This document shows, in pieces, positions 12,106 to 41,749 of a DNA stretch of 44,491 nucleotides. Every line of letters starts with the position of its first letter. Position 1 is the stretch's first letter. The stretch is from Rhizobacter sp. (GTDB lineage Bacteria; Pseudomonadota; Gammaproteobacteria; Burkholderiales; Burkholderiaceae_C): the NCBI GenBank assembly GCA_025361845.1, contig JANYJL010000220.1, positions 1 through 44,491 on the forward strand. The letters are read 5' to 3'. The notes under the pieces were generated by a model. It made no database searches and was not told where the DNA came from. It worked only from the letters and a program-made list of their open reading frames with translations. A program made the translations under genes and the position numbers.

Positions 12106-12264
12106 ATGGACTTCATCGAGCGCATCTTCGGCTTCTCGCCGGATGACGGCAGCGGCTGGTTCGAGTTCCTGCTGTTCGCCATTCCACTCGCCGGGGTTGC
12201 GTGGCTGTGGCGCCGAAGACAGCAAAACAAGGCCCAACGCACACGCGACCAAGCCCGCCGCTGA
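12106..12264 (+). CDS. Small single-span membrane protein, 52 residues
   Basis: A 52-codon gene with a good ribosome site (GAGGG 8 nt before ATG). The protein starts MDFIERIFGFSPDDGSGW, has one hydrophobic segment (about 19-36, FEFLLFAIPLAGVAWLW) and a strongly basic C-terminal end (RRRQQNK, then RTRDQARR), which predicts the C-terminus in the cytoplasm. It is divergent from the transporter and 24 nt before the next gene, so it may head the large operon. No function recognised. The charge pattern and ribosome site argue against a chance frame. Confidence 0.6.
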   Translation: MDFIERIFGFSPDDGSGWFEFLLFAIPLAGVAWLWRRRQQNKAQRTRDQARR

Positions 12265-12288
12265 TTGCCGAGAACCCGATCCGTCGGC

Positions 12289-12912
12289 ATGATCAAGCTC
12301 ACGCGTCTGGCCCTGGATTCGCGGGCGCTGGCCGGTGACCTGCGGCTGATCGACCCCGGGCTGTTCCAGCCCAAGCCGCTGCCCTCGGGCGGCGTTGCGG
12401 GCGCGGTGCATCTCAAGCCCGATGATCTGCAGCGCCTGGTGCGCAGTGCCGCCGTGTCTTTGTGCGGCCTGGGCGACGAGGCGCAAGACGCAGCCTTGCG
12501 CCGCACCGTGCTGTGGCGCGATGGCGAAAGCGATCTGCTGATCTTCCCCGGCGGCATGGAAACACGCCTGGCCGAAGGCATCGTCGCGCTGAGCCTGCCG
12601 GTGTTCTGCGATCAGACCGAGGGTGTGCTGATCCACGTGTCTTTCTTCGTCGGCACCGAGTCGCGGCCGGCCGGGCTGGTGGTGGCCACCGAGGAACGCC
12701 CGCGCGGCCCTGCCGCGGTGGTCGATGTCTGGGGCGAGCGTGTGGTCGCTCTGGCCTGGCGCGTGCTGCTCGGGCTGGCGACGCAGGTTGCCGCTGAATC
12801 GGGGCGCGATGAAGACGGTGCGCCACTCTTGCCGGTGGCCCTGTCGGCGAATGTCGACGGCCTGTCGGTGCTGCCGATGGCGCGCCACGCGATGGACCGG
12901 GCCAGCGCGTGA
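12289..12912 (+). CDS. Uncharacterised 207-residue protein at head of the giant-protein operon
   Basis: I do not recognise this protein. It is 207 residues, soluble, with no signal peptide or clear membrane span. It begins MIKLTRLALDSRALAG and contains hydrophobic beta-like stretches (DLLIFPGGMETRL, GIVALSLPVFCDQTEG). The segment PVFCxxxEG followed by GT is also found near residues 118-134 of the giant protein encoded next, hinting at a shared fold or origin. ATG at 12289 is preferred over TTG at 12265, which abuts the previous stop. The gap to the giant gene is 70 nt. Coding is supported by the strong GC-rich third-position pattern and gene order. Confidence 0.7.
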   Translation: MIKLTRLALDSRALAGDLRLIDPGLFQPKPLPSGGVAGAVHLKPDDLQRLVRSAAVSLCGLGDEAQDAALRRTVLWRDGESDLLIFPGGMETRLAEGIVALSLPVFCDQTEGVLIHVSFFVGTESRPAGLVVATEERPRGPAAVVDVWGERVVALAWRVLLGLATQVAAESGRDEDGAPLLPVALSANVDGLSVLPMARHAMDRASA

Positions 12913-12982
12913 GCACGCCGGGCCGCTCCAAGGGCTCAAGCTCCCGCTCGGCGGGACGACGCGCAGCGTCCAGGGTGCCCCA

Positions 12983-15900
12983 ATGACCACGGACGAACTC
13001 GGCATCCTCGGTGAGTTGGCCGAGGCCCTCGGCCTCACCAACAACGGCAGCTTCCAGGACGATTGGTTGTCCGACCCCGGGCGCCACCTCAGTGCGATGC
13101 TGGCCAACCGGCGCCAACGCGAGGCGCTGGTCGCCTTCATCGACGACGTGCTCGGCGGGCCGGAGCGCGAAGCCAGCCCCGATGGCCTGACCTGGCTGCC
13201 GATAGCGCAGGCGCATGCGCCCGAGGTCACGGTCTACGCGGTGCTCGACGACCGGCCTGCCGATTTCGTCGCCATCGGGGTCGGCGTGCGGGTCGCGTCC
13301 ACCGCGCCGCAGGCATCGCTGTCGGTCCATGTGCCGGTGTTCTGCGCCGCGAAGGAAGGGCACAGCGTCGCCTCGCCGGTACTGCTGGGAACCGCCGCAG
13401 CGCGCGCCAACGTGTCACTCGACATCACCACCGCCACCAGCGCCGCCGTGCCCGGCCAGGCGCACCTGGGTGGCGTGGCGCTGGCCTTGTCGGTGCCCAC
13501 CGGCGCGGGCGGCGCGGCGCCGCAGTTCTCGCTCAGCCTGCGCGGTTTGCAGATGCCCGGCGCGCCAACCCCGCGCGACCTGACGCTCGCTGTCTCCGAC
13601 CTCGCATCGCTCGAATCCTCGGTGCTCGAATTGGTGCTCGGCCTGGCGCGCGCGCAGGCCGCGGCCATACCCGACGGGCCGCTCGCCGCGCTCGCCGGCC
13701 TGGTCGGCCTGCGCGATGGCGTGGCCTTGCCGCCACTGCCTTTGCAAGACCTGGCGCGCGACGGCGTGGTGGTGCTGGCGCGCTGGCTCGGCGACAGCCT
13801 GCTGCAGCCGGGCCCACGCGCGCTCTGGCTCGGCCAGTTGAAGCTGCTGCTCGGCGGTGCGCCCGATCCTTTCGATGCGGACACCATCGGCTTCCCGATC
13901 GGCCCGCTGCGCCTGAGCATCGCGGTGCCGGCCACGCCGGGTGCCGCGGGCCTCGTGCGCATCCAGCCCACCGTCGGCATCGAATGGCGCGCCCAGGCCG
14001 GTGTGTGGCTGCGCGCCGAGGCGGTGCTGTGTTCGCTCGATCTGGGCAATGGCGCGGCGCGCGCCCTGCCTTCGCTGAACCTCGGGCTGGTGCTCGGCCT
14101 CGCGGCGGGTGGCACACCACTGGTCGATGTGGCCGCACCCACTGCGCTGCATGTCGATTCGCTGCGCGCCGGCTTCGGCCTCGACGCACAACGCCGCCCG
14201 AGTTTGCTGCTCGCTGCCGATGGCGTGAACATCGCCGGCCATCCGCACGGCACGCTCGATCTGTCGAGCCCGGACGCCATCGCGCAGGTCGGTGCCACCG
14301 TCTTCAGCGACGTGGCCGATGCCGTGCTCGGCCGCCTCGGCCCGGCCGCCGACGCGGTGCGTGTGCTGCTCGGCCTGAGCGCACCGACCGGGCACCCCGA
14401 GGTGGCGACCGTCGCCTTGGGCGCCTTCCTGCAAGACCCGCTCGCGGCCGTCCGCGCCCACTGGCTCGGCCTGCTGCACGACCACGCCGCGGCCGTGCCC
14501 GCCGTGCTGACCGAGCTGCGCGATCTGGTGGCCGACCGCGCCGGTGCCGCGCTCGACATCAGCGGCCTCGGCCGTGCCGATGCGCCTTGGCAGATGGCCC
14601 TCGCCGGCCCGGTCGTCTTGCAGGCCTGGACGGTCGGCGACCGCCTGCGTTTCGGCCCGGCCGTGCGCTTCACGGTGGACAACATCGGCCAGCGCTGCAC
14701 GCGGCTCGAAACGAACATCGCGATCACTTTGGTCGACATCGACCTCGCGCATGCGGGGGCGGCTTTCGTCTCGTCCATCGATCTCGCGCTCAAGCTGCGC
14801 GCGCGTGGCCGCGACGAGGCGCTCCTCGGTGTCGGCGGGCTGCGCCTGCGTGCCGATCACGTCGCCCTGGTGTTCGCGTGGTCGCCAGCGAACGGTCTCG
14901 ACTTTTCCTTTCAGGCGCCGAACCTGGTGCTCGATGTCAACGGCGTCGATGTGCCGGTGCAGGTTCCGCAACTCGGCGCCGGCGGCCGGGTGCTGTTCAG
15001 CGCCGCCGATTGGTCGGCCCTGGAGCAGTTGCTCGCCGCGCTCGCGAATGCCGCTGCACCGCCGTGGCTGGACGACCTGATCGGCCTGCTTGGCTGGCAG
15101 CGCCAGGGGCGTGTGTCGGCCGGGGTGGTGGCGGCGCGCCTGAGTTTGTCGGCCTTCGTGCTCGACCCGGCAGCGGCCTTGCAGCAATGGCTCGCCGACA
15201 CCCTGCGCGGCGACCACGAACTGCTGCAACGTGCCTTCAACGGCCTGGCCAGTTTGCTCACCGGCGCGCGCGGTGGCACGCATGGCGTGCTGCTCGGCAC
15301 GGGCTCGCCGCAAGACCCGTGGCGGCTGCCGATGGGGCGCGCGGTGGCCTCGGCCGAACTGCTCGCCTGGGTCGGGCCGGACGGCCCGCTGCCCATCGCC
15401 GCGTCGGTCAACGATGCACTGCGCAGCTGGCGCCCCGGCATGGACGCGCTCGCGTCCGTCGACTTGCAGCAGGCCTTGATCGAACAAGCGCGCAGTGGGG
15501 CCGACCTGGCCGCGCTGATCGACGGGCGCGACGACATCGCCGCCGGCTTCGACGCCCTGGTCGTGCGCTGGACCGGCAGCGATGGCCTCGTGCTGCCGCC
15601 CACGAGTGCACCGGCCAGCGTCGCCATCCACCGCGTGCTCAACACCGCGCAGCGCGAGTTGCTCGCGACGATCGATCTGGAAGACCTGCTCGGCAGCGCA
15701 CCCGTGACCGTGGTGCACGTGGCCGTGGCCGCACCCGGCGCGATGCCCTGGGCCGAGATCCCCGCCGATCGTTTGATCGACCTGCGTGCGCCGGGTTTGC
15801 AGGCGGCGGCCTTCGCATTGCCGACGGCCGCTACCGGGGATTGGTTCATCGCTCTCGGCGGGCGCGATGCCTGCCGCAACCCGAGCGGCGATGCGGATGG

Positions 15901-18900
15901 CACACAGGGCCAGGCCGAGCGCATCGTCCGCGTGCTCGGTGCCTTCGCGGCGCTGGGTGGCGACCTGGTGCTCGTGGCCGAGGCCGCGGCGGGCCATGCG
16001 GCACGGCGCGCGGCTGAATCGGTACCGGCCGTGACCGCGCTCGTGACGGCGGGCACGCCGCTCGGCCCGGTGTCGCTGCAAGTGCTCGACAGCGCACCCG
16101 CCGCCGACGCGCTGCGGCTCTTGCAACAACTGCTGCCGCCCCCGCCCGCGGCCGACAGTGACGATCCTGGCGACGACCCCGACCTTCACCTGGCGCGTGG
16201 CCTGATCGGTGGCCTCACGTCGCTGATGCAATCGGACGATCCCGGCCGCGAGCTGCGCCCGCCGACGGTGCCGCCCGGCGCGGCGCGTGCCGGCCTCGCG
16301 GTGCACATGCTGTTCGGTGAGATCGCCGACACCACGCGTTTGCAGCGCGCCATCACCGCCGTGGTCGCCGCCGGCATGGCCGACCGCGCCGCCTTGCGCG
16401 CGGCGCACAGCTACACGCCACCGGATCGGCTGGTGCTCGCCGTGCGCGCCAGCCTGTCCTCGCCGGCTTTGGCGGCAGGCCAGGTGCGTGTGGACGGCCA
16501 CGCGCAACTCGTGCTCGGCGAATTGCGCGCGCAGGCAGGTGCCGTCAGCCTGCACACCGACCGGGTGTTGAACGTCCACCTCGGTGTGGGCCGTCACAGC
16601 GCGTGGTTGGTTGGTGGCCCCGACCCCGGCCGCGCGCCGGGCGACGCCGTGCCGCACCAGTTGCGCCGCGCCAGCCTCGACCTCGCCTTGCCGCTCGGCG
16701 GTGGCGCCGGCCCGGCCGAAGCGCAGGCCTGGATCACGCTGCACGAAGCGCGTGTCTTCGAACTCGCGCGTGAACGCTGGCGGGTGCAGGCCAGCGGCTT
16801 GGCGAGCGAGCTTGCCGGCTTCGATGCGGCCACCACCCTGCTGCCCGAAGCGCGGGTGCTCTTGTCGAGCCTTGCGCTTGCATTGGGTGGCGAGACCAGC
16901 GGGCCGGGTGTGGCGCTCACCTTGCTGTTGCGCTCGCTCGAATTCATGGACGCGGCCAGCGGCAGCGTGCCCGATGCCATCGAACACCTGCTCAACGACC
17001 CGGCGCAGCAACTGCGTTCGCTGGTCGGCGATGCGACGCGCCGCGATGCGCTGGTCGCTGCCTTGCGTGCGCTCTGGCCCGGCTTGCCGGCGGGTGCGCC
17101 GGATCTGCCCGCGGTGCCCGGGGAAGTGGTGGTCGGTGCCGGGCCGCTGGTCGCACGCGTGTCCTTCGCGCCCTGGCGCGTCGAGGTGCAGGCCGGTGCC
17201 GCTGCCGGCGCGGGTGCAGCCGGCGCGGTGGCCGGTGTCGGCGCCGGGGCCTTCGGCTGGTTCGACTGGCAGGCTCGCCTCGTGGTCACAGTGGCCGGCA
17301 TCGGTGACGGTTCGGTGCGCATCGGCGTGGGTGCTGGCGCGGCCGTGGGCAGCACCGCGATCACCGGCGGCCTGCAACTTGAACTGAACCGTGCGCTGCG
17401 CTTGGCACTCACCTGGGACCGCCCCGGCGCGGTGGTGGCCGACGCGCTGGAACTCTGGCCGAATCCGCAGCCGCAGGATTTCGAACGCGCCCTCGTGCGC
17501 CTGGTGCCGGCCGAGCTCACCCGCATCGCGCTCGAGGGCCTGCGCCAGCTCGACGAAACCGCGCGCCCCGTGATCGATGCGGCCTTGTCCGCCTTCGGCC
17601 TGCTGGGTGTGGCCGACACGCAGGGCCGGCGCCGCGTGCCGCTGCCGGCGGCGCTGTTCGCCGACCCGGTCGCGTGGCTGCGCAGCGAGGCCGCGCTCGG
17701 CCTGGCTGGCGGCTTCGCGGCGGCCAAGCTCGTGCCTTTGTTCGATGCGCTGAAGCCGCTGCTCGGCATCGGCGGCGCCGGCGGCAGCCTGGACCTCGCG
17801 ACCGGCATCACGCTGCGGGCCGAGGCCGACACCTCGGGTCATGCGCGCCTGGCCTTGGCACTGGACAGCAGTGCCTTCGAACTGCCCCTCGCCGCGGCGG
17901 CGCGGCTGGTGTTCGGCGGCAGCTTCCAGCTCACGCTCGCGCCCGGCAGTGCGGCGCGTGCCGGTGCCGAAATCTTCGTCGGCCTGCGCGCCGACACCCC
18001 CGGCCGCTCGGCAGTGCACCTGGTGCTCGGCGAGCTGACTCGGCTGTTCCTGCGCCCGGCGGTCGGTGCCGATCTGGCCCTGTTCCCGAACCCCGCTGGT
18101 CTAGGCCAGTTGGCGCAAGGCCTGGCTGAAGAGGCTGTGACGCAAGCCCTGCCGCTGGTGTTGAACGCCCTCGCCGCCTTGCAGCCGGATGCGGGCTTGA
18201 AAGGCCAGGTCGGCACCCTGGTCGCGCGCATCGGCGACGCGATGGCCTTGCGCAGTGCCGGGCAGTTCGTGCCGGCGGCCTTGCAGACCTGGGCCGCAAA
18301 CCCGGCGGCTGCCCTGGCCGCGCGCCTGCCCGCGCTGCTCGCCACGGCGCTCGATGGCCTGGCGCAGGCGCTCTCGCCGCTGCTGCCCGGCGGCACCGGC
18401 GCATCGTTCGGCGCCGGGGTGTTGACGGTCCATGTCGGCGGCTTCGAGCTGACCGTACAGCCTTCGCCCTTCACGGTCGGCATCACCGGCACCTTGGCTG
18501 GCCTGCCGGCCATCGACCACGCGCGCCTGGCCTTGACGCTCGATGCGAGCGGCCTGAAATCCTTCGAGCTGCAAGTCGGCCCCGCGAGCATCGACGCCGG
18601 CGGCGTGCTGCTGCGCCCGGCCTTCAACGTGGTGGCCGGCAATGCGCCCGTCGGCGGCGCGCGGGCGCAGCTCGCGCTCGGCCTGCCGGGCGATCGGCTG
18701 GTGGGTGCGCGCTGGATCATCGGCGGCCGCTTCGACCTCGTGCTCGTCACCGCCGGCGCGGAAGACACGAACCTCGAAGCCGTCGCGCTCGGTCTGCTCG
18801 AAGCGGTGCTCGATCTGGTCGCGTCCTTCGTGCTGCGCACCGAGGCGGTGACACAACTGCTGGCCAAGCGGGTCGGCAGCAAGTCGATCCGCGAGGTGAT

Positions 18901-21900
18901 GGCCGGCGCGCTGCTGGTCGATGCCGCCGGTGCGCCCGCGTTGGTCGATCAGCTCTTCAATCTGCAACTGCTGCTCGCCCGCCTGCAACGCCTGGCTGCC
19001 AACGTGGCCTCGGCCAACCCGAGCATCACCATCGATGGGGCGCTGACCATCGGCCTCGCCGGCAGCAGCCCCGGCGATGGCAGCCAGCTCGTCGGCGTGC
19101 GCCTGTCGCTGCCGCGGCCGGCCAATCTGTTGCCCGCCAGTTCGGCGATCACGCTCGCGCTCGAGAACGACGCCCGCTGGATCAGCAGCGCGGCGGGCGC
19201 GGTGCCCGAAGGCATCGTCATCGACCTGCTCAAGGTCGGCCCGGCGGCGGGCGCTTTCGCCTTCACGCCAGGGGTCTCGGTCAACGGTGTCGGCCTGCGG
19301 GTCGGGCGACGCGAAAAGCCCTTGCTGGAAGCCGGCTCGTTCTCGATCGGCTCGGTCGCCTTGCATGTGTTCGCGCAGGTGAACGCCGGCACACGCGCTG
19401 GCGGTGTGCAGTTGCAGTTGTCCCAGCTCGCGGCCGGTGTGGCCAGCGCGAGCGGCGGCAATGCGGTGGGGCAGGGCATCCTGGGTGATGCGGGCTCGGG
19501 CAGCAACCGCCTCGCGCCCGCCTTCAGCCCGGCACTGAGCGTGCAGAAAATCGGCAGCGGCCCGGTGCTCGTGGGCCTGCGCGCGGGCGATGGCACCGGC
19601 CCGTGGTGGCTCGCCATCCAGCGCGGTTTCGGGCCGCTCTACGTCGAGCAGGTCGGCTTCGGCGTCAGCCTGCAGGGAGACCAGTTGCGCAGCATCTCGC
19701 TGCTGCTCGACGGGCGCGTCTCGCTGCTCGGCCTCACCGCCGCGGTGGACGATCTGCAGCTCACCTTCGTCGTCGCCTCCAACGCCTCCTTCTTCGACCC
19801 CTCGCGCTGGGCGGTCGATCTGGCCGGCCTGGCCTTCGACGCCAACATGGGCGGCCTCACCCTGCAAGGTGGCCTGCGCAAGTTCGGCAGCGGCGACACC
19901 ACGCAGTATGTCGGCATGCTCATGGGCCGCTTCGCGGTCTACGGCCTCTCGGTGTTCGGCGGTTACGGGCACGGCGTGCAGAACGGCCAGCGCTTCGCGT
20001 CCTTCTTCGCCTTCGGCGCGATCAACGGGCCGATCGGCGGCGTGCCAGCCTTCTTCGTCACCGGGATCGGCGGTGGCCTCGGCATCAACCGCCAGTTGCT
20101 CATCCCGTCGGACATGTCGCGCTTCGACCAGTACCCGCTCATCAAGGCGCTCGACCCGGCCGCGCGCCCGAGCGGCGATCCGATGGGCGAGTTGATCGCG
20201 CTCGGCGGCTACTTCCCGATGGAGCGCGGCTCCTTCTGGTTCGCGGCCGGCTTGTCCTTCACCAGCTTCGCGCTCGTCGATGGGGTGGTGGTCGTGTCGG
20301 TGCAGGTGGGCGATGGTTTGCAGATCGCGTTGCTCGGCCTCGCACGCATGGCGCTGCCGCGCCCGCAGGCGGCGATCGTCTCGATCGAGCTGGCGCTCGT
20401 CGCGCGTTTTTCCACCAAGGAAGGTGTGCTGTGGGTGCAGGCGCAACTGACTGACAACTCCTGGATCCTCTACCCCGAAGCGCGCCTGACCGGCGGCTTC
20501 GCTTTCGTGAGCTGGTTCGGCGGCCCGAACCGCGGCCAGTTCGTGCTGACGATCGGTGGCTACCACCCGAAGTTCCACCGCGCCGGTTACCCCGAGGTGC
20601 CCCGCCTCGGCCTGAACTGGCGCGTCGGCCCCTTCCTCACGATCAAGGGCGAATCGTATTTCGCGCTCACCTCCGAGGCGGTGATGGCGGGTGTGCGCGT
20701 CGAAGTCTCGGCCCGCTTCGGCCCGGCCTGGGCGCAGGTGATCTTCGGTGCCGATGGCATCGTCTACTTCGACCCCTTCCATCTGGAAGTGCACGCCTAC
20801 GCGTCGATCCGCGCCGGCGTGACGATCGATGTGTGGATCGGCGAGATCACCTTCTCGATCTCGATCACGGCCGACATCTTCATCGAAGGGCCGAGCTTCC
20901 ACGGCATCGCGACCTTCTCGGTCGGCCCGGTCGACCTGGCGGTCGAGTTCGGCGATGCGGACCAGCCACCGCGCCCGCTGCTGCTGTGGGGCCCCTTCAT
21001 CCGCAAGTACCTCGAAGACGCGGGCGGCGACACGGCGCGTGTGCTCGCCGCCGCCACCGGCAAGGGCGCGTTGCCACCCGGCACCGGCCCGGGTGGCGCG
21101 ACCGACACCGGCACGGCCGATGGCTCGACCGACAAACCCTTCGAGGTCTATGCCGAGTTCGAGATCACGCTGACGAATTCAGTGCCCACGCGCCGCGTGC
21201 TGCTCGGCGCGCGCACGATCGAGAAGACGCCGAGCCACAGCATCAGCCTCGCGCCGATGGGCCTGGCCGACGTGAGCACGGTGCTCACCGTCACGCTCAC
21301 GCGCGACAGCGACCACAGCGTACACACCGATGCCTTCAGCGCCGAGGTGCACAGCGCGCCGTCCTTCCCGCTCGGTGTGTGGGGCCCGCCGCAGAAGGCC
21401 GACAACCCGAAGATCCCGAGCGGCGATGTGCTCGAAGCCATCGACGGCCTGCGCCTCTACACCGTGGCCGACATCCCGCCCGGCCTGCCGCCGATCGACT
21501 ACAAGCGCCGCGTCGAAGCCGGTGTGCGGCACCCGCTGCCCTTCGTCAGCGAGCAGGCGACACGGCCGCAGTTCACTGCGGCATCGGCCGCGCTGCGTGC
21601 TCAGGTGCCGGCCACGGCCGACGACAACGCGGTGCTGGCCATCGCCGCCCAATGGGCCGCTCGTGCTGACGGCCGCAGCCGCACTTCGGTGGCCTCGCTG
21701 CGCGGTGAACGCGCCGCGCCGCCGCGGCTCGGTTCGCTGACCGACGGCCTGGCCATCGCGACCGGCCCCACGGCCGTGGTCGACCTGGTCGAGCCGGGCC
21801 GGCGCGCCGCCGTCAACACCTTCGTGCAGCGGCCGAAAGTGGTGGCAGTGCTCGGCACCGGGCTGGACGAACCCGAGCGCGCCGGGCAGCGCACCACGGT

Positions 21901-25170: not shown

Positions 25171-26174
25171 ACGCCAACCTCAACCTCAGCGCAACGATGG
25201 CGATGCAGTTCGTCGCGCAGTTGCTTTCCACCGTCACGTTCTCGACGCAGGAAGACGACGCCGAGTTCGGCAAGCGCGTCGTGCCCGGCGAGCTGCGCGG
25301 CTGGCTCGCGCGCTTGCGGCTGCTGGAGGGCGTGCCCTTCTCCTACCTCGTCGCCGACGAACAACTGCTGCCGCGTGAATCGATCCGCTTCTTCTACCTC
25401 GACCGCGCCTGGACCGATGCGCTCGTGCAAGGTGCGCTCGGTGTCGGCACCGTCAATTCGAGCGACCGCGCCGAGTTGGCGGCGCTCTACCGCGTGGTGC
25501 GCGACGAGCTCGACGAAGAGGAGCGCCGTGTGCGCCTGCCCGGCGGCGAAACCGTTCAGCAAGGCCCGGCCGGGCCGGTGAGCGGCTTCGTGCTGCGCTC
25601 GCGCGCGGTGGCGGGCTGGCCCGGTCTGCACGTGCGCGCCTACGACCGCGAACTCGGTGTCGCCGACGATGCCGCCATTCCGGAGAGCGACCCGCGGCGC
25701 TTGAAGCTGCTGCGCATGGAGCGCCTCGCGCCGGCCGTGCTGCTGGTGCTGTTCGACGGCATCCCCGCGGTGGTGCACATCGAGGAGCCGCGCCAGGGCA
25801 TCCAGTTCGGCGTGCGTCTGTCGCCGGTCGGTGGCGACCCGAACAACTTGCAGGCGGGCGTGAAGGCGCGCAACGCGAAGACCGCGCTCGACACCAATGC
25901 GAACGCGGCCGACCTGGTGCCGGTGCCGTTCAGGCCCGGCTCACCGGGCGTGATCGACATCCGCAAGCTCAACGAAGCCTTGCTCGCAGCGCCAAACACG
26001 AACATGGAAGGCTCGGTCGATGGCGCCGAGTTCGCGTTGCAGATGCTGCGTTTCCCGTACCGCCAGGTCTTCGGCGATCCGAGTGTCAACGGCGCGCCGC
26101 CGCTGGTGAACGTGTTCCGGCCGACGCTCGCGCTGAGTGTCGCCAAGCTCGCCACCCTGTTCAGCCGGAGTTGA
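25167..26174 (+). CDS. Uncharacterised 335-residue protein of the giant-protein operon
   Basis: Not recognised as a named family. Overlaps the previous gene by 4 nt (ATGA). The sequence shows RGWLARLRLLEGVPFSYLV, then LLPRESIRFFYLDRAW and LVQGALGVG, followed by a Glu/Arg-rich helix and SGFVLRSRAVAGWPGLHVRAY. The C-terminal part (DGAEFALQMLRFPYRQVFG) reads like a compact alpha/beta domain. There is no signal peptide and no strong membrane segment. It is followed after 5 nt by the 1297-residue gene. Tight coupling suggests a stoichiometric partner in a larger assembly; the function is unknown. Confidence 0.75.
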   Translation: MNANLNLSATMAMQFVAQLLSTVTFSTQEDDAEFGKRVVPGELRGWLARLRLLEGVPFSYLVADEQLLPRESIRFFYLDRAWTDALVQGALGVGTVNSSDRAELAALYRVVRDELDEEERRVRLPGGETVQQGPAGPVSGFVLRSRAVAGWPGLHVRAYDRELGVADDAAIPESDPRRLKLLRMERLAPAVLLVLFDGIPAVVHIEEPRQGIQFGVRLSPVGGDPNNLQAGVKARNAKTALDTNANAADLVPVPFRPGSPGVIDIRKLNEALLAAPNTNMEGSVDGAEFALQMLRFPYRQVFGDPSVNGAPPLVNVFRPTLALSVAKLATLFSRS

Positions 26175-26179
26175 GCGCC

Positions 26180-29100
26180 ATGGCGAACTTCGACAACCAG
26201 ACGATCACCAAGCAACTGCTCGGCGCACGCTGGAGTGCGTTGGCGCGCACCGGCTTGTCGCTCGATGCGGTCGGCCGTTTCGACACCACGCTCTTGCGCG
26301 ACACGCGTGTGCTGGTGCCGATCGACGTGCAGGCTTTGTACGTGCCGGCCGGCAGCGGCGAAGCGATGACGCGCCTGCCGCTTGCCATCGCTGCACCCGA
26401 TGGGCAGGCGATGCCCGTGGCCACGAGCTACCTCGCCGATGGCCCGGCGCGGCCGGCCGGCGTGCATCTGCGCTGGGCCATGCCCGATGCCTTGCTGCGC
26501 GGCTCGCTCGGCGACAACGGCGCGACGAACCGGCTTGCGCTGCCTGCCTTGCCGGATCGCTGGGTGGTGCTGCGCGTGCTGGCGCCGAAGGGCAGTGCCG
26601 TGCCGAAGCTGCGCGGCTGGGTGATCGAGGCCGATACCACGCGTGTCGTGCCGCTCGAACAGTGGCCGGCGGGCGCCGCGGCCGTCACCGCCACCGGCCG
26701 CAGCGTGCCCGCCGAAGGTTTGACGGGCTCCTGCGGCGGCTCGCTCAACTGGACCGGCGTGTACGACGCCACGCTGAACCGCTTTGCGCTGCACGATCCG
26801 CTCGACGACCTGGTTGCGCTCGCGCCTGCCGGTGTCGAAGGCGATCAGGTCGCCTACCTCGTCGCCGGCTGGTGGAGCCAGCCCACGCTCGATCCGCTCG
26901 ATGGCGCGCAGACCGACAGCAGCCTGCACGAGCGTCTGCGCCAGCTCGGCTGGGCCCTGATCGAAGACCGCGAAGACACCGAGAAGCAGCAACAGGAACG
27001 CCGCGTGCTGCAAGACAAGCAGGCCTCGGTGGGCCTGGACGTGGCCACGCGCTACGCGACCAAGGCGGTCGCGCTGCAGGCGGGCGTGCGCGCCGCACCG
27101 ACCGCGGCGGCTGCGACCAAGCTCAAGCCCGGCCTGCAACAAGCGACCGCGGCCTTTGCCGACCGGGCCACTGCGGTGATTCAAACGGAGCCGCACTGGC
27201 CGCGCAGCAGCTTGCTCCATGGCAGCCTCTACGGCGTGCCGATCAGCGGCCCAGTGACCATTGACAACCGGCCCGCCGCGAGCGAGCTGGATGCTGTCTG
27301 GGGCGAACACGGCGAAGACATCGCCGCCACGCTCGCCTCCACCGCACTCGCGCCAACCGATGCCGCCGCGCGCCGCGCCTATGAACGTCTGCTCGCCGCC
27401 TTCACCGGCAACCTGATCGACCGCATCGACAGCGGCGACGGCCTGGTCGATGTGGAAGAGTGGGAGCACGTCGCCGGTTACGCCAGCCGCCCCGGCGGCG
27501 ATGGCGGCACCGACCGCTTGCTCGAAGGTGCCGATGCCGGGCCGCTCGCCGCGGGCCGCCACGCGCGCGGTGCGGTGGCGCGTGCTTCGGCCGCGGCGCT
27601 GAAGGGTGATGCGGGTACGGGCACCAAGGTTTCGTTCGGCAAGCAGCGCAAAGATCTGCGCATCGTGAGCAAGGACGAGCAGCGCACGCAGATGCACGAA
27701 TGGGGCGAGACCGACAAGGAGCGCGCGCAAAAACAAAGCACGCCCGCGCAAGCCGGCCGCGCCGAACCGGCGGTGCGTGAAGTCAAGCTCGCCGCACCGC
27801 GCCTCTACACGCCCGGCGAGCCGATGCTGGCCTTGCGCGGCGCGCGGCGCAGCCTGATTCATGGCGGTGACGGGCGCCACTCGGCCGATGGCAAGCTCAA
27901 CTGCCGCTATCCCTCGCAGGTGATCCGCGCGATCGAACAGGTGATCGATGGCAGCGAGATCCTGCCGACGCTCGGCACGGCGGCCGTGCCGGATGAAGTG
28001 CTGCTGCTCGCGCGCGAACTGCTGATGCACAACCCGTATTGGGCGACCTGGCTGGCCGGTGTGGCGAGTGCGCGCCACGGCCTCGACGGCGCAGCCACGC
28101 GCAAGCGCATGGTCGCTGAAGCGGCCTTGCGTTTCGGCAGCACCGAGGCGGTCTACGACGGCACCAGCGGCGCCTTCTCACGCAAGGTGAGCATGGCCGG
28201 TGGCGCCACACGCGCGACCACGGACGCGCGCATCGCCGACCAGTTGCGCCGCTTCTCGCTGTTCCAGGGTGTCGACCCCGACCCGGTCGGCGTGACGGCC
28301 TGGTCGCAGCCCTGGATTCCGCTCTGGCTCGAATGGGAGCTGGGCCTCGAACTCGACGACACACTTGCCGGCTGGTCGCTCGGCACGGTCGATCTGCAAG
28401 CGGGTGAGGCGATGCCCGCCACGCCGATCGCCCGCACGGTGCAGGGCCGCAGCCCGCTCACCACCGGCGTGGCCAACAACCTGAGCGGCGCGGTGCGCTC
28501 CTGGCTCGCCGCAGAAGACCAGCGCGACAAGAACAACCAGGGTGAGGCGAGCGAATCGACCGAAGCCGCGCTCGCGCGCATCGCCGCCGCGGTCGATCAG
28601 CTCGACGTGCTGAGCGCCAACTTCGACGGCCTGCGCGAACAGCTGCTCGGCCTGGCCTACGACGGCGGCTTGCCGCGCTTGCGCCTGCCGGACGGCACGC
28701 TCGGCGACTACCCGCGCAATGGCGAAACGCCGCTGTGGTTGCGCGGTGGTGCGCTGCGTTTGCGGCGCGCGCGCCTGGTCGATGCCTTCGGCCGCACGCT
28801 CGATGTTCCGCTCGAACGCCTGCACGCGCCGCAACGTCTCGCCTTGCCCGCCACCGCGCCGGTGCCGGCCGGTGCGCGCGGCGAAGCGCTGCGCCTGCCG
28901 CCGCGCCTCACGCTGCCGGCGCGCCTGATGTTTCGTCTGGTCGATCCGGCCGCGCGTGGCGACGAAGCCGCCGAAGCGAACGTCGACCAGGTCGAACCCA
29001 CGCGCATGGTCAACCCGGTGATGGGCTTCCTGCTGCCCGACCACATCGACGAAGCGCTCGAAGTGTTCGACGCGGCCGGCGCGCCGCTCGGCCAGTTGAT

Positions 29101-30073
29101 GCATGAGCCGATCGGTGGCGGCGTGGTCTGGGAAATCGCGCCCGGCCGCGAAGGCCCGGCCGATGCGGGCCCGTTGTTCGGGCTGAGCGGTGGTGCCACG
29201 CACTTGGGCCGGCTCGCCGCCGGCACGGTGACGGCCGACGCGCAGGTGCGCCAGGGTGCGAGCGCGGGTGCCGACGACGAGTCCGCGCTGTCGGCCTTGC
29301 TGCGCTCGATCGACACGACGATGTGGAGCGTCGATGCGCTGCGCAGCATGGGCACCGAGCACATCGCCGGTCTCGTCGGGCGGCCCATCGCGGTGGTGCG
29401 CGCGCGCTTGCGGCTCGATATTCAAAGCGACTACGGCCTCGACGCCGTGGCTGCCACGCTGGCCCTCGCCGACCGCGCCTTCACCGTGCGCATCGGCGAG
29501 ATCACGCGCAGCGACGACGCCGTGCTCGGCTACTTCATCGACGACGACTACGCGCACGTGCACGTGGTCGACAAGGTGGTGGCGCAACTGGCGATCGACA
29601 GCGGCCGCCTGCGCGGCCAACTCGCCGGCATCGACACCGCGGCGCAGGTGCCGGGCACGCGGCCGATCACCCACCCGTACGTGGTCGCCGAAGACGAATT
29701 GCAACTGCGGCCGGGGCAGACAGTCATGATCACCCTGCTGATGCACCCGGCCGGCAAGGCACACGCCACTTGCGGTGTGCTGCCGCGCAAATCGCTCCAG
29801 CTCGCGCGCGATTGGGTGGCGCCGGCGCTCGCCGTGATCGCGCCTTCGGCCCGCATCGGCCCGGTGCTGATCGACCCGGCCCAGGTGCGGCTGCCGAAGA
29901 TCTCGTCCTTCCCGAAGAACCAGCTCTTCACGCGGCGCGACACACCGGCGAGCTGGAAAGACGACCCCATCCTCGCCGCCACGCAGGAGGCCCTGTTGCC
30001 CGAGTTGCCGCACGAGGTGCAGGAGGGTTACATCCGCATCGCGCCCGAGCCGGCGCCGAAGAGGGGCAGCTGA
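26180..30073 (+). CDS. Uncharacterised 1297-residue protein of the giant-protein operon
   Basis: Not recognised. ATG at 26180 is preferred over an in-frame TTG at 26171 that overlaps the previous stop. The N-terminal third holds VLVPIDVQALYVPAG, GVHLRWAMPDALLRG and LPDRWVVLRVLAPKG, suggesting beta-rich binding modules. A charged helical stretch (about 255-285, EDREDTEKQQQERRVL) may be a coiled coil. The middle (about 580-700) has LLLARELLMHNPYWATWL and the C-terminal third is again beta-rich (EDELQLRPGQTVMITLLMHP). No signal peptide. It follows the 335-residue gene by 5 nt and precedes the propeller gene by 2 nt, so it belongs to the same translational unit. Confidence 0.75.
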   Translation: MANFDNQTITKQLLGARWSALARTGLSLDAVGRFDTTLLRDTRVLVPIDVQALYVPAGSGEAMTRLPLAIAAPDGQAMPVATSYLADGPARPAGVHLRWAMPDALLRGSLGDNGATNRLALPALPDRWVVLRVLAPKGSAVPKLRGWVIEADTTRVVPLEQWPAGAAAVTATGRSVPAEGLTGSCGGSLNWTGVYDATLNRFALHDPLDDLVALAPAGVEGDQVAYLVAGWWSQPTLDPLDGAQTDSSLHERLRQLGWALIEDREDTEKQQQERRVLQDKQASVGLDVATRYATKAVALQAGVRAAPTAAAATKLKPGLQQATAAFADRATAVIQTEPHWPRSSLLHGSLYGVPISGPVTIDNRPAASELDAVWGEHGEDIAATLASTALAPTDAAARRAYERLLAAFTGNLIDRIDSGDGLVDVEEWEHVAGYASRPGGDGGTDRLLEGADAGPLAAGRHARGAVARASAAALKGDAGTGTKVSFGKQRKDLRIVSKDEQRTQMHEWGETDKERAQKQSTPAQAGRAEPAVREVKLAAPRLYTPGEPMLALRGARRSLIHGGDGRHSADGKLNCRYPSQVIRAIEQVIDGSEILPTLGTAAVPDEVLLLARELLMHNPYWATWLAGVASARHGLDGAATRKRMVAEAALRFGSTEAVYDGTSGAFSRKVSMAGGATRATTDARIADQLRRFSLFQGVDPDPVGVTAWSQPWIPLWLEWELGLELDDTLAGWSLGTVDLQAGEAMPATPIARTVQGRSPLTTGVANNLSGAVRSWLAAEDQRDKNNQGEASESTEAALARIAAAVDQLDVLSANFDGLREQLLGLAYDGGLPRLRLPDGTLGDYPRNGETPLWLRGGALRLRRARLVDAFGRTLDVPLERLHAPQRLALPATAPVPAGARGEALRLPPRLTLPARLMFRLVDPAARGDEAAEANVDQVEPTRMVNPVMGFLLPDHIDEALEVFDAAGAPLGQLMHEPIGGGVVWEIAPGREGPADAGPLFGLSGGATHLGRLAAGTVTADAQVRQGASAGADDESALSALLRSIDTTMWSVDALRSMGTEHIAGLVGRPIAVVRARLRLDIQSDYGLDAVAATLALADRAFTVRIGEITRSDDAVLGYFIDDDYAHVHVVDKVVAQLAIDSGRLRGQLAGIDTAAQVPGTRPITHPYVVAEDELQLRPGQTVMITLLMHPAGKAHATCGVLPRKSLQLARDWVAPALAVIAPSARIGPVLIDPAQVRLPKISSFPKNQLFTRRDTPASWKDDPILAATQEALLPELPHEVQEGYIRIAPEPAPKRGS

Positions 30074-30075
30074 GC

Positions 30076-33000
30076 ATGGCCCGCCTGCGCAAACCCAAGG
30101 CGAGTGAGGTGGTGGCGGCCGCGGCCGCGGCCGCGCCGGCGCCCGCGCCTGCCCTGGCAGCGCGCCAACGTTATGGCGCTGTGCGCAAAGACCCCGCCAA
30201 GCGCGGCCGCGCGAAGGAGCGCCAGGCTTTCCTGGCCGAGCGGCGCGGCAGCGTCGATGCCGCCACCATCGATGCCGCCGTCCAGGCGCGCCGCCGCCAA
30301 GTCGCCGCGGCGAACGCCCTGCGGCCGCCTGCCGGCGCGCGCGGCGTGCCCGTGCCGGCCGAGCAGCACCTGTGGCTGCCGATCGGCCCGACCGTCGTGC
30401 TCGGCGGCCAGGCGAGCGGCCTGCCGCGCGTCTCGGGCCGCATGAACGATGTGCATGTGTCGAGCGACGGGCAACGCGCCTACGCGGCCTCGGCCAACGG
30501 CGGTGTCTGGTACAGCGACGATGCGGGCGAATCCTGGCGCCCGCTCGGCGGCTGGACCACCACCGCACCGGCCGGTACGGTGCCCGCGATCGATCAGCAA
30601 TCGAGCGTGTTGACCTGCGGCTGCATGCTGGTGCGCTTCGACCCCGGTGGCAACGCCGCACTCGACGAAGTGCTGGTCGGCACCGGCGAGTTGATGCCCT
30701 GGGGCATCGGCGTGCCCTTCGGCCAGAACTCGGGCGTCGGCGTGCTCTACGGCGACCACCCGGCCACGGCGCCGCTGTTCGGCTCGCCCTGGCAACGCGA
30801 GGGCAACAACCTGAGCGGCAAGGGCATCTTCCGCATGGCGCGCGACCCGGCCTCGCCCACGCGGCTCGATGCCGCCACCATCGTGGCCGCCACCTCGGCG
30901 GGTTTGTACACACGCAGCGGCGCACCGAACGCGGCCTGGACGGTGGTGCCCGCGGCCAACTTCCGCCAGCTCGATGGCGTGACCCCACTCGCCGTGGCCG
31001 ACGACACGCTCACCTGCACCGATGTGTGCTGGCTCGCGGGCGGCGTGGTCTTCGTGGCCGTCAGCAACGCGGCAGCGGCGGACCCGGCGCTCTACGTCAG
31101 CACCGCCGGCCTGGCCGGGCCCTTCATGCCGATCGTGCTGGCGGGGCTGGCGCAGGTCGATACCAACGGCAACCATGCGCCGAGCCGCCTGAGCCTGGCG
31201 CCCGCGCCCTCGGACGCCACCGTGCTCTACGTGCTGGGCTCGGGCAACCTCGTGTGGCGGCTCGACAACCAGGTGCCGGTGGCGGTGCAGAACATCCCGC
31301 CCAACCTGCTCGGCGGGCAGGACGACTACAACCAGGCCATCGCCGTGCACCCGACGCGGCCTGAGCGCCTGCTGCTCGGCGGCGCCACCGAACTGGTCGA
31401 CAGCCAGTACAGCGCCTCGCTCTACATCGCCAGCGTCACCGCGCCGGCGGCAGGCAGCTGGCGCTACGGCTTCGCGGCCATCGCACCCGGCGCCGACCCG
31501 ACCGCCGATGATTCCTTCATCGGCAGCGGTGTGCATGCCGATGTGCACATCGCGCGCTTCGTCACCGTGGGCACGCGCAACGAACTGTGGATCGGCTGCG
31601 ACGGCGGCATCTTCCGTTCGCTGCGCGGCAACGATGACAACCGGCTCGTCAAGCGCAGCTTCATTGCGCGCAACACCGGCCTGGCCACGCTGCAATGCGG
31701 CTACCTGGCCACATCTCCCGCGGCGGACGGCTTCGTGGTGGCCGGCGCGCAAGACAACGCCCTGCTCGAACGCATCGGCGTCAACCTGTGGCGGCGCCGC
31801 TTCATCCATGGCGACGCGGGCAGCGTGGCTTTCGACCCGGCGGCCCCCCATCGTTACGTGGCCGAGATTCACAACGCCTACTGGAATTGCACCGACGCGG
31901 CGTTCACGCCACCGGTGTTCCGTGCCGGCGCCGCCACGGTGGCCGAGAAGGCCGAAGGCAAGGAGACCGGCTTCTACACCGGTATCGATGCGGTGCGTGT
32001 GCCTGGGGTCGGCGCTGCACCCGCCACCAGCCGGCTCGCCATCGGCAGCACGCGCATCTGGTTGACCGCCGACTGGGGCGCCACCTGGCGCAGCCTCCCG
32101 AGCCTGGGTGACCCGCTGGCCAAGGGGCTGCTGGCCGCCGCGCAGAACAACGACACCGATGCGTGTGTCGACGATGGCAACGTGCCGCCCGTGCGCGATG
32201 CCTTCCGCGGTCAGGTGCTGGCCTGCCGCTGGGCCAGCCCGGATCGCCTGTACGTGCTGTGCCGCAAGGAAGTGCTGAAGTACGAACTGATCGCCGATGC
32301 CACCGTGGCCGGCGGCCTGCGTGCCACCAAGACCGCGCTGTCGAAGCAGGGCGCGCACAAGAAGGAGGGCCGGCAGGCCGCGGCCACCGTGACCTCGCCC
32401 GGCCAGCGCCTGCCCGAGGTCGGCGAGTGGAGCGACATCGCCGCGCACGACAACGGCCGCGGCCCGCATGGCTCCTTCTACGTGGCCGCGACCGGCGACC
32501 CGGCCACGCCCACGATGGACACGCTCTGGTGGTTCGACGGCACGGACCGCTGGCATGCCACCGGCCTGCGCACCGACGCGGCGCACCCTGAGCGGAGCGT
32601 GCCCGCCCCTGCTTATGCGGTGGTGGTAGACCCGCGCGACAACCGCAACACCGTCTACGTGGGCACCGCGGTCGGCGTGTGGCGCGGGGTGTTCGATCCC
32701 GGCGCCACGACGTGGGCCTGGTCCCCGATGACGAACGGCCTGCCCGAGGCCATCGTGCACGACCTCCATCTGCACGACGAAGCGGCCACCGGCCAGCGCC
32801 TGCTGCGTGCGGCGGTCCATGCACGCGGCATCTGGGAAGTCGATCTGGCGCAGCCGAATCTGCAGGCGCGCAGCTTTGTGCGCGTGCACGACTTCGACAC
32901 GCGGCGTGGCAGCCCGACCCCGCTCACCGATCCGCGCAGCGCCGCGCCCGCCAGCCCCTTGAGCTGGCACACGAGCCCCGACCTGCGGGTGCGCCCGCTC

Positions 33001-33849
33001 CGCGGCAGTCGCCCGCCGACGGCGACCATCAAGCCGACGGCCACGGCCCCATGGGTCGGCAACACGCCGGATCCATACGGCCTGTGGGTGTTCCAGACCG
33101 CATTGCATGCACGCGGTGCGGGCGACCCGCTCGTCAAACCCGATGGCATCTGGACGCCGGTGTTCGAGGCCCGTTTGCGTGCGGCCAACGGCAACTCCAA
33201 CCGGCTGACGCGGGCGTTCTGGAACACCGTGGTCGGCTCGGGCGCAGCTTTCCCCGATGCGTATGCCGATCCGTGGAACGGCAGCGTGCCGAGCGAGGCC
33301 GACCTGTACGAGCTGATCGTCGATCTGCCCAAGCCCGGCGGCTCGCCGGCCTCGATCGCCATCGGGCGTGGGAACGCCAGGGTCGACGTGCAGGTGCACC
33401 ACCGCCACAGCGATACGCTGCCCGCCGACCAGGTGCGCGTGACGCTGCTGGCGCGTGACGTGTCGGGCAACGACGCCAACGACGCGGCCTGGGCCGCCTT
33501 GCCCTGCGCGTGGACCGGCCCGGTGCAGGTGGCGCTGCGTGCTGGCGGTCCGCTGCCCGCGTTCGGCAGCCTGCCCGCACTCGCCGATGGCTGGCGTTTT
33601 GCCGACATCACGCAGCCGGTGCGCAACCCCACCGGGCCGCTCGACCCGCGCCTCTCGCGTGTCGTCACGTTCGACGTGGACCTCGGCGCCATGCTCGGCC
33701 CGCCGCAGGTGCCGGCGGTGCCGCGCCGCCTGATGCTCGTCGCTGTGATCCACACCCAAGCCGATCCGGTCGACATGACGGGCGGCAATCTGCGTGCGGT
33801 GGTCCTGGCCAATCGTTTCGTTGCCGCGCGCAGCCTGGAAGTGGTCTAG
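30076..33849 (+). CDS. BNR/sortilin-type beta-propeller protein, 1257 residues
   Basis: The N-terminus (1-100) is basic and Ala/Pro-rich, not a signal peptide. From about residue 105 to 930 the sequence shows repeated propeller blades of the BNR/VPS10 type: GGVWYSDDAGESW (about 142-154), GTRNELWIGCDGGIF, IWLTADWGATW (about 662-672) and VYVGTAVGVWRG, ending in HARGIWEVDL. Residues about 950-1257 form a separate beta-rich C-terminal part. BNR propellers occur in glycosidases and in binding receptors; I see no catalytic set, so a ligand- or partner-binding role is more likely. It starts 2 nt after the preceding stop and is the last gene of the block; 118 nt without a clear terminator separate it from the cytochrome gene. 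Confidence 0.8.
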   Translation: MARLRKPKASEVVAAAAAAAPAPAPALAARQRYGAVRKDPAKRGRAKERQAFLAERRGSVDAATIDAAVQARRRQVAAANALRPPAGARGVPVPAEQHLWLPIGPTVVLGGQASGLPRVSGRMNDVHVSSDGQRAYAASANGGVWYSDDAGESWRPLGGWTTTAPAGTVPAIDQQSSVLTCGCMLVRFDPGGNAALDEVLVGTGELMPWGIGVPFGQNSGVGVLYGDHPATAPLFGSPWQREGNNLSGKGIFRMARDPASPTRLDAATIVAATSAGLYTRSGAPNAAWTVVPAANFRQLDGVTPLAVADDTLTCTDVCWLAGGVVFVAVSNAAAADPALYVSTAGLAGPFMPIVLAGLAQVDTNGNHAPSRLSLAPAPSDATVLYVLGSGNLVWRLDNQVPVAVQNIPPNLLGGQDDYNQAIAVHPTRPERLLLGGATELVDSQYSASLYIASVTAPAAGSWRYGFAAIAPGADPTADDSFIGSGVHADVHIARFVTVGTRNELWIGCDGGIFRSLRGNDDNRLVKRSFIARNTGLATLQCGYLATSPAADGFVVAGAQDNALLERIGVNLWRRRFIHGDAGSVAFDPAAPHRYVAEIHNAYWNCTDAAFTPPVFRAGAATVAEKAEGKETGFYTGIDAVRVPGVGAAPATSRLAIGSTRIWLTADWGATWRSLPSLGDPLAKGLLAAAQNNDTDACVDDGNVPPVRDAFRGQVLACRWASPDRLYVLCRKEVLKYELIADATVAGGLRATKTALSKQGAHKKEGRQAAATVTSPGQRLPEVGEWSDIAAHDNGRGPHGSFYVAATGDPATPTMDTLWWFDGTDRWHATGLRTDAAHPERSVPAPAYAVVVDPRDNRNTVYVGTAVGVWRGVFDPGATTWAWSPMTNGLPEAIVHDLHLHDEAATGQRLLRAAVHARGIWEVDLAQPNLQARSFVRVHDFDTRRGSPTPLTDPRSAAPASPLSWHTSPDLRVRPLRGSRPPTATIKPTATAPWVGNTPDPYGLWVFQTALHARGAGDPLVKPDGIWTPVFEARLRAANGNSNRLTRAFWNTVVGSGAAFPDAYADPWNGSVPSEADLYELIVDLPKPGGSPASIAIGRGNARVDVQVHHRHSDTLPADQVRVTLLARDVSGNDANDAAWAALPCAWTGPVQVALRAGGPLPAFGSLPALADGWRFADITQPVRNPTGPLDPRLSRVVTFDVDLGAMLGPPQVPAVPRRLMLVAVIHTQADPVDMTGGNLRAVVLANRFVAARSLEVV

Positions 33850-33967
33850 CTCACTTGGGCCCTGGACACCCCTAGCCTTTGGGAGAGGGTCGCCGCTTTC
33901 GCACTCAGGGTGAATATTCCGGCGCAGAATGATTTTCAACATCGAACACCACGAAGGGAACGTCGTC

Positions 33968-36517: not shown

Positions 36518-36536
36518 CTGGCCGGCCCACTTGCCA

Positions 36537-38399: not shown

Positions 38400-38454
38400 C
38401 ACGCACTGACGATTCATTGTTTGTTCACCGCGGGCAACCGCCAAGGAGATGACC

Positions 38455-38886
38455 ATGGCCTACGACGCAGCCCAACTGCTCGACATGACACAGACCCAGC
38501 TCGACGACCTGTTCCGCGCCAGCCCCGCCGGCCCCATTCCGGACGGCATGGCCAAGGGCACGGCCATCATCGCGCCGGGCACGAAGTACACCGAAACCAT
38601 CGCCGAACTCATCAACCACTTCGGCTGGCAGGGCAAGGTGTTCGACGCGAAGAAGGGTGTGCTGAAGAACAAGATCCTGATCTTCGGTTTCGAGGCCATC
38701 CTGGCGCGCGTCTACATCGACAAGAGCTGGCTCGACGGCAAGGACTGCGTGGTGCTCGACTACTCCGAGACCTCGATCCTGGCGCACTACATCCGCGACG
38801 AGATCCGCCTCATCGGGCCGGGCTTTTACCTCGGCAAGGTGTACTGGGCGAAGGACCGGTTGATCGACTTCTGCCTGCAATTCTGA
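38455..38886 (+). CDS. Conserved 143-residue protein of unknown function
   Basis: The start at 38455 is chosen because AAGGAG lies 6 nt upstream; the earlier in-frame ATG at 38449 abuts that site. The protein is soluble and beta-rich in its second half: GKVFDAKKGVLKNKILIF, then VVLDYSETS, IRDEIRLIGPGFYLGKVYW and RLIDFCLQF. This pattern looks like a small barrel or lipocalin-like binding protein, and I recall similar unnamed proteins in other bacteria, but I cannot name a family. It stands between the flavoprotein (55 nt gap) and the membrane protein and may bind the substrate or product of the redox cluster. Confidence 0.8.
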   Translation: MAYDAAQLLDMTQTQLDDLFRASPAGPIPDGMAKGTAIIAPGTKYTETIAELINHFGWQGKVFDAKKGVLKNKILIFGFEAILARVYIDKSWLDGKDCVVLDYSETSILAHYIRDEIRLIGPGFYLGKVYWAKDRLIDFCLQF

Positions 38887-38910
38887 GTTTGTGACTGCGT
38901 GTGATTCAGC

Positions 38911-41744: not shown

Positions 41745-41749
41745 CGACC

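Follow-up and report, generated by a model that had tools for sequence, protein, structure and literature searches.

The stretch of DNA analysed here (44,491 nt of Rhizobacter sp., assembly GCA_025361845.1, hereafter the window) is an entire contig (JANYJL010000220.1; our C261) of a 4.5-Mb draft genome, and it carries a block of very large forward-strand genes built around a giant protein with a DUF6603 domain. An earlier note, made from the sequence alone, had described five co-directional genes for proteins of 3379, 682, 335, 1297 and 1257 amino acids (aa), and these are indeed present: A (12983..23122, with an ATG start), B (23122..25170), C (25167..26174), D (26180..30073) and E (30076..33849), with candidate ATG starts at -1, -4, +5 and +2 nt relative to the preceding stop at the A/B, B/C, C/D and D/E junctions. 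D has an alternative TTG start at -4 nt, and the open frame of A continues 5' of the ATG at 12983, its earliest start lying at 12725. Codon-position GC supports the forward frames of A, B and E; those of C and D failed that filter. The note had placed the left limit of the block at 12106, a position that is not recognisable as a gene start, and had missed a sixth gene, Z (12289..12912, forward strand, 207 aa), which lies immediately 5' of A and with which the unit begins. Tight junctions recur elsewhere: in eight other giant loci a candidate start lies at most 11 nt from the preceding stop at all junctions shown, except for A/B in G173 (+39). The block ranges from 8 kb in its short form to 21.6 kb in the window.

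The four genes A-B-C-D keep one order on one strand in all 19 complete loci of a profile scan, as recounted. Ten of these are of the giant type (the window, G101, G103, G173, G334, G345, G375, G134, G498 and G562) and nine of the short type (G194, G290, G360, Paenibacillus polymyxa, Streptomyces NBC_01276, S. clavuligerus, two loci of Embleya NBC_00896 and one of Embleya NBC_00888); a third Embleya NBC_00896 locus (Emb896c), which reads A-B-C-D-T, raises the count to 20/20. The order is found in Pseudomonadota, Actinomycetota and Bacillota, and G498, G562 and Emb896c were absent from the profile alignments. Left out of the count are P. sonchi, which lacks A; G100, whose A and D-E lie on separate contigs; G102, with A in two frames and a contig stopping in B; and G742 and G673 as members of the second architecture discussed below. 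In the short forms of Streptomyces and Paenibacillus, A has about 850-910 aa, a fused B-C about 715-750 aa and D about 1,050-1,150 aa, C being joined to the end of B in seven of ten short-type loci. Pairwise protein distances for A, B, C and D are correlated at 0.90-0.95 over 19 loci, and at 0.92-0.99 in the giant loci when E and Z are included, with at most 2 of 2000 label permutations reaching values as high. Correlated distances of this kind show joint inheritance and are not proof of contact between the proteins.

Among genomes sampled at one per species, DUF6603 occurs in 1/100 relatives (the window's own genome), in 9/398 Pseudomonadota and in 6/369 genomes across the class, the own genome being included each time and G134 being common to the phylum and class sets. 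The D profile matches exactly the nine of 398 genomes that have DUF6603; drawing the same nine by chance would have a probability of 1.6e-18 if genomes were independent, which they are not, as G290 and G360 share a genus and two further pairs share a family, and seven of the nine carriers contributed rows to the D profile, besides the window. Among 72,556 plasmid records, D and C of the window each match the same eight, three of which are the same S. clavuligerus plasmid, and B matches seven of those eight. One of the eight, a Paenibacillus sonchi plasmid (L007 11623-17031), lacks DUF6603 and has D split in two frames, a copy that looks decayed. D is also broken into two frames near its C-terminus in G360 (L033/L034), unlike in its relative G290, and the giant A of G102 (L061) lies in two overlapping frames, which may be an assembly error of a draft genome. 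As judged from these comparisons, it is well supported that A-B-C-D form a single inherited, co-produced unit across phyla. Of the five genes whose co-occurrence across phyla the note had proposed to test, A to D do occur together (20/20 complete loci), but E is not universal, being present in 8/10 giant and 0/9 short loci. That the unit makes one co-produced assembly stands as far as inheritance and co-production go, the order and the joint divergence speaking for both; a physical assembly would be a further step, and the set as first described lacked Z.

What changes is the end of the unit: the core is constant and the last gene is replaced lineage by lineage. E, unmatched in the loci scanned later, also turns up in G100 and G102, where the unit is divided between contigs. 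In G134 its place after D is taken by an astacin/matrixin-like protease (Astacin, E 6e-6, above cut-off; Peptidase_M10, E 4.5e-5, just under it), and in G562 by a protein without a Pfam match. Five of six actinobacterial short-type loci (S. clavuligerus, Streptomyces NBC_01276, Emb896a, Emb888 and Emb896c, not Emb896b) have T proteins after D, Emb896c being the sole T locus outside the T profile. T genes stand in tandem in three loci, and when compared in blocks of 50 residues all three pairs share a like stem and differ in their C-terminal tip: the NBC_01276 pair scores 0.72-0.90 over five blocks and then 0.38, 0.22 and 0.12; the S. clavuligerus pair 0.32-0.96 over seven blocks and then shows no likeness because one copy stops; and the Emb896a pair 0.26-0.34 over two blocks probably lying ahead of the true start, 0.68-0.88 over five, and then 0.26-0.32. 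One T tip is a PLAT domain (E 8e-16). Variable C-terminal tips are one mark of a polymorphic toxin system, but no toxin domain was found among those of the T proteins scanned. Behind D in Emb896b lies a 1920-aa frame of uncertain start with Fib_succ_major at its end (E 7e-12). In G194, one protein matches B_lectin under the cut-off, and the 880-aa protein behind D (L038 1179-3818) has a signal-peptide-like start by eye, unflagged by the hydropathy scan. P. polymyxa carries a PLD-like gene 2.5 kb behind D. Upstream of A, an MBL-fold gene is found in Emb896b, just under cut-off in G290 and as a near-identical copy in G360. In Streptomyces NBC_01276, genes of a CATRA conflict system and with CHAT domains lie about 5 kb upstream of the unit (L008 690-5746).

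The other end of the giant loci is more constant. A profile of Z built from seven loci matches 10/11 giant-type loci that have upstream DNA (the window, G334, G101, G103, G375, G173, G345, G498, G100 and G134, not G562), and the distances of Z correlate with those of A to E at 0.92-0.97 in giant loci. The idea that Z is a detached piece of A was unsupported by profile comparison (probability 0.3%). A match to the beta-galactosidase domain LacZ_4 (E 0.006) came from one unnamed member of a set of E, Z and T sequences (A9), possibly Z.

DUF6603 also occurs in a second architecture, which reaches the haloarchaea. A search of plasmids with the A core returned 19 records, 12 of them without a match to B, C or D of the window and four of these haloarchaeal. 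Eight of the 12 were examined; the other four were Gemmatirosa, Natrinema and two more records of S. longwoodensis. Profiles of A and of a B-like family were made from seven of the eight. Those of the two families that follow, provisionally named LETRF and GRQWQ for motifs noticed by eye, drew on five and four of the eight, each plus G742. The order DUF6603, B-like, LETRF holds in all ten loci scanned (L070-L077, G742, G673), including L077 (Paraburkholderia), which is in no profile alignment, and L071, where B-like and LETRF are scattered over several frames. GRQWQ follows in seven of the ten; the sequence stops earlier in L070, L071 and G673, and the records of L070 and L071 place GRQWQ directly behind. 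In the Halobellus plasmid record (L071), the A-core search reported a second DUF6603 place as well. A tblastn search with GRQWQ found 14 plasmid records, that is the 12 plus Rhizobium lusitanum, which the A-core search missed although a DUF6603 gene is annotated within the run, and S. anthocyanicus, where a lone GRQWQ member (L080 13944-15749) has no DUF6603 annotated within 14 kb. The last-position family of this archaeal-type operon gave 0 matches in the 398 Pseudomonadota genomes, which is uninformative because the sample held no positive genome. A PhoD-like gene precedes DUF6603 in L072 and G742; the first gene of L073 resembles, by eye, a degraded PhoD and carries PG_binding_1.

The two architectures are distantly related. 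Their DUF6603 cores are homologous (E 5e-32), as are B and its B-like counterpart (98.6%, E 1e-15 by profile comparison), the N-terminal part of B corresponding to the gene that follows DUF6603 in the archaeal-type loci. C compared with the end of the archaeal-type B protein gave 24.5% (E 8e-4), which is suggestive only of a relationship. A kinship of D with LETRF or GRQWQ was unsupported (0.1% and 2.4%, the latter over 27 columns).

The family to which the core belongs is itself clear: DUF6603 (PF20248), at 19616..21121, scores 391 bits in A against a curated cut-off of 27 (E 7e-117), its profile matched 0/14 control genomes, and homologues of A are present in the 30 complete loci scanned. 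Pfam describes PF20248 as a single domain and a family of unknown function, of which the A core is a clear member; the constant partners B, C and D belong to unnamed families. The earlier note knew of no described system with this set of proteins, and literature searches agree with it: no paper naming DUF6603 or PF20248 was found in an open-licence library of 5.39 million papers, the range of the search, which took in neither subscription papers nor preprints. Beyond DUF6603, nothing in A exceeds the cut-off in Pfam or NCBIfam. Tandem repeats of about 230 residues each, diverged and at least three in number, occupy part of its N-terminal region (13514..15385; residues ~178-403, 404-634 and 657-801), with a best pairwise probability of 93-97% in profile self-comparison. 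Six short A proteins show no match to these repeats in their N-terminal parts (1.3% probability), where they have their own repeat of about 103 residues (85%), so that the idea of A as a length ruler, with a varying copy number of one repeat, is unsupported. A tRNA-Thr called by ARAGORN at 17697-17782, within the coding frame of A, is probably a false call.

B, C, D and E of the window have no Pfam family above cut-off, B, C and D none in NCBIfam (scanned with A to D), and E has no Pfam match at E up to 1. Across 38 B, C and D sequences, Pfam gave three single-member matches (E 0.015-0.045), none of them convincing. The propeller that the note had proposed as the fifth protein fares somewhat better by profile: that of E weakly resembles the solved BNR protein PDB 3b7f (E 0.006 over 47 residues), which makes E probably an Asp-box (BNR-like) propeller protein, with no Pfam match to back it. 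For an identity of E as a sialidase or BNR glycosidase, this weak hit and the LacZ_4 hit of the unnamed set member (E 0.006) are what was found.

After fragment rows were dropped, invariant columns numbered 28 in A and 21 in B, none of them D, E, H, K, C, S, T, N or Q; D had 42 (five D, one H) and C had 10 (one D, one S, one E). With this composition the core looks structural rather than catalytic, and catalysis by the core proteins appears less likely.

Behind E lie six further forward-strand genes, F to K (33929-42976), for a cytochrome c (862 aa), a GMC oxidoreductase, proteins of 145 and 432 aa, a DyP-like protein and one of 446 aa with, by eye, a catalase-like appearance. Relatives of the cytochrome occur in 21 rhizobial plasmid records (46-47% identity for the eight listed). 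The single one examined, a Sinorhizobium plasmid, has a GMC gene next to the cytochrome gene, as in the F-G pair, with no DUF6603 annotated beside it. F-K were rejected as members of the unit: no homologue of them occurs in L002-L005, and near other loci there is a single distant GMC match.

How could such a unit work? The reading that we consider best, tentatively and a little short of an even bet, is that of a structural core whose end piece, which binds or hydrolyses, can be exchanged. One transcript would give rise to a large soluble complex in the cytosol, with the core proteins as its structural members. Its backbone would be A, which comprises DUF6603 and, in giant loci, an extended region built partly of repeats; B/C and D could serve as assembly or adaptor subunits. 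The last gene would supply an end piece that binds or cuts the target, propeller-like in the case of E, and elsewhere fibre-like proteins of changing tip, or hydrolases. The target might lie at the cell surface, because the end pieces include domains of lipid- or sugar-binding type; a surface- or neighbour-directed role is our second guess, mainly from the PLAT, lectin-type and cell-wall-type neighbours. It is a still more doubtful step, though a conceivable one, to see in DUF6603 the mark of an undescribed, non-phage-derived class of protein machine in bacteria and haloarchaea, with at least two architectures and a constant core bearing exchangeable receptor-binding or hydrolytic tips.

Several observations weigh against a structural core with exchangeable end pieces. 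Profile searches of PDB at E up to 1 returned nothing for the A core or for B, C and D. Structure predictions of the A core (3 alignment rows) and of the C-terminal part of D (4 rows) had a mean predicted local distance difference test (pLDDT) of 27.7 and 34.1; with too few alignment rows, the models were discarded and no fold search was made from them. Near-invariant polar residues do exist (H358 in A; E115, H168, E217 and D467 in B; E71 and D100 in C; H208, C578 and D960 in D), and D also has the run H208-D209 plus D241 and H433, so that D or B may yet contain a site for catalysis or metal binding. The note's statement that signal peptides are absent is borne out, in that a hydropathy scan recognised no export signal or signal peptide in the window proteins: B, D and E have no 19-residue hydrophobic segment over threshold, and the segments of A (at 981 and 1933) and C (at 187) are not N-terminal. 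A role at the surface is thereby left without a route. Finally, if a linked block is transferred as a whole, the distances of its proteins could correlate even though the proteins never touch.

The alternative that survives best, although we think it rather unlikely, is a released or surface-borne antagonism machine, like contractile injection systems or toxin complexes and not descended from them, whose core bears a tip that binds a receptor and whose hydrolases are delivered or presented to other cells. The patchy spread of the unit (1/100 relatives, 9/398 in the phylum), its carriage on plasmids and its variable tips are what such a machine would lead one to expect, as are PG_binding_1 in L073, an S8 peptidase in Nocardia and the protease of G134. 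CVNH, two GH25 lysozymes and a glucosaminidase gene lie downstream of the Rhizobium lusitanum DUF6603 run (L081 17753-29644), but the lysozymes are at least 10 kb behind it and may be unrelated. A PHROG scan of A-E and Z gave a single match, of B to a tail-fibre family, that is non-significant (E 0.22). Against such a machine, D and the A core had no match in phage records, and the D, A-core and B profiles none in viral contigs (C was not covered); with both searches empty, a viral origin was rejected. A phage sheath family occurs in 2/13 carrier genomes, on contigs other than that of the unit, and CIS_tube in 0/13, in a search without a positive control in which nothing matched in the controls either. 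Nothing places the unit among contractile injection systems or tailocins, the genome-wide search having covered sheath and tube families. A PADLOC scan, which covers described defence systems, gave one match, in C (E 0.036), and none in Z.

Several known systems are comparable in part. Tc toxin complexes are likewise very large multi-protein units that include a propeller-bearing member, but Pfam shows no Tc family (TcA, TcB or TcC) in A-E, in the 38 B, C and D sequences or in 19 E, Z and T sequences, and gene order and sizes differ. Extracellular contractile injection systems may have a similar spread across soil bacteria and archaea. The DUF6603 unit differs from them in having no sheath, tube or significant phage-type match among the families searched. 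It resembles them in its exchangeable fibre-like ends, as one account describes exchangeable fibres, variable C-terminal binding domains, beta-propellers and lectins for these systems (PMC12923769). Giant1-5 of Apilactobacillus kunkeei, described as extracellular surface proteins of 3,000-8,000 aa, are also encoded by five consecutive very large genes (PMC12863079). The window proteins, in which the hydropathy scan recognised no signal peptide of the kind that giant secreted surface proteins carry (no dedicated predictor was applied), are set apart from these by that description and not by sequence comparison. The BNR/Asp-box protein 3b7f weakly resembles the profile of E as described above.

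Less likely again is an intracellular scaffold or compartment with hydrolase cargo (PhoD-like, MBL-fold, peptidases) and a housekeeping or stress role. It would account for the missing export signals and for the hydrolase genes directly 5' of DUF6603, PhoD-like in L072 and G742 and MBL-fold in Emb896b, G290 (under cut-off) and the G360 copy. However, in giant loci that upstream place belongs to Z (10/11), the patchy spread counts against housekeeping, and PLAT and lectin-like tips fit such a scaffold poorly. We find it improbable that A consists of repeated beta/helical units which bind lipids or a polymer, in an operon for handling an envelope polymer. The ~230-aa repeats, the PLAT tip and the phosphatase and MBL neighbours would suit it, yet A has no family match above cut-off beyond DUF6603, the three PDB matches of its N-terminal 2169 residues are weak (E 0.24-0.96) and none is a lipid-transfer protein, and the fold prediction of the core, at a pLDDT of 27.7, lends it nothing. 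That unrelated large genes merely stand side by side by chance is, for A-D, refuted by their co-occurrence, constant order and correlated distances, and hardly deserves any credence for the block.

Three of the four core genes have no family name, and their order is kept in three phyla, which makes the unit a clear target for structure and genetics. Since short forms exist in Streptomyces and Paenibacillus, the purpose of DUF6603 can be tested with modest constructs. If the reading of a constant core with exchangeable tips is true, the unit would represent a machine for targeting that has no relation to phage tails.

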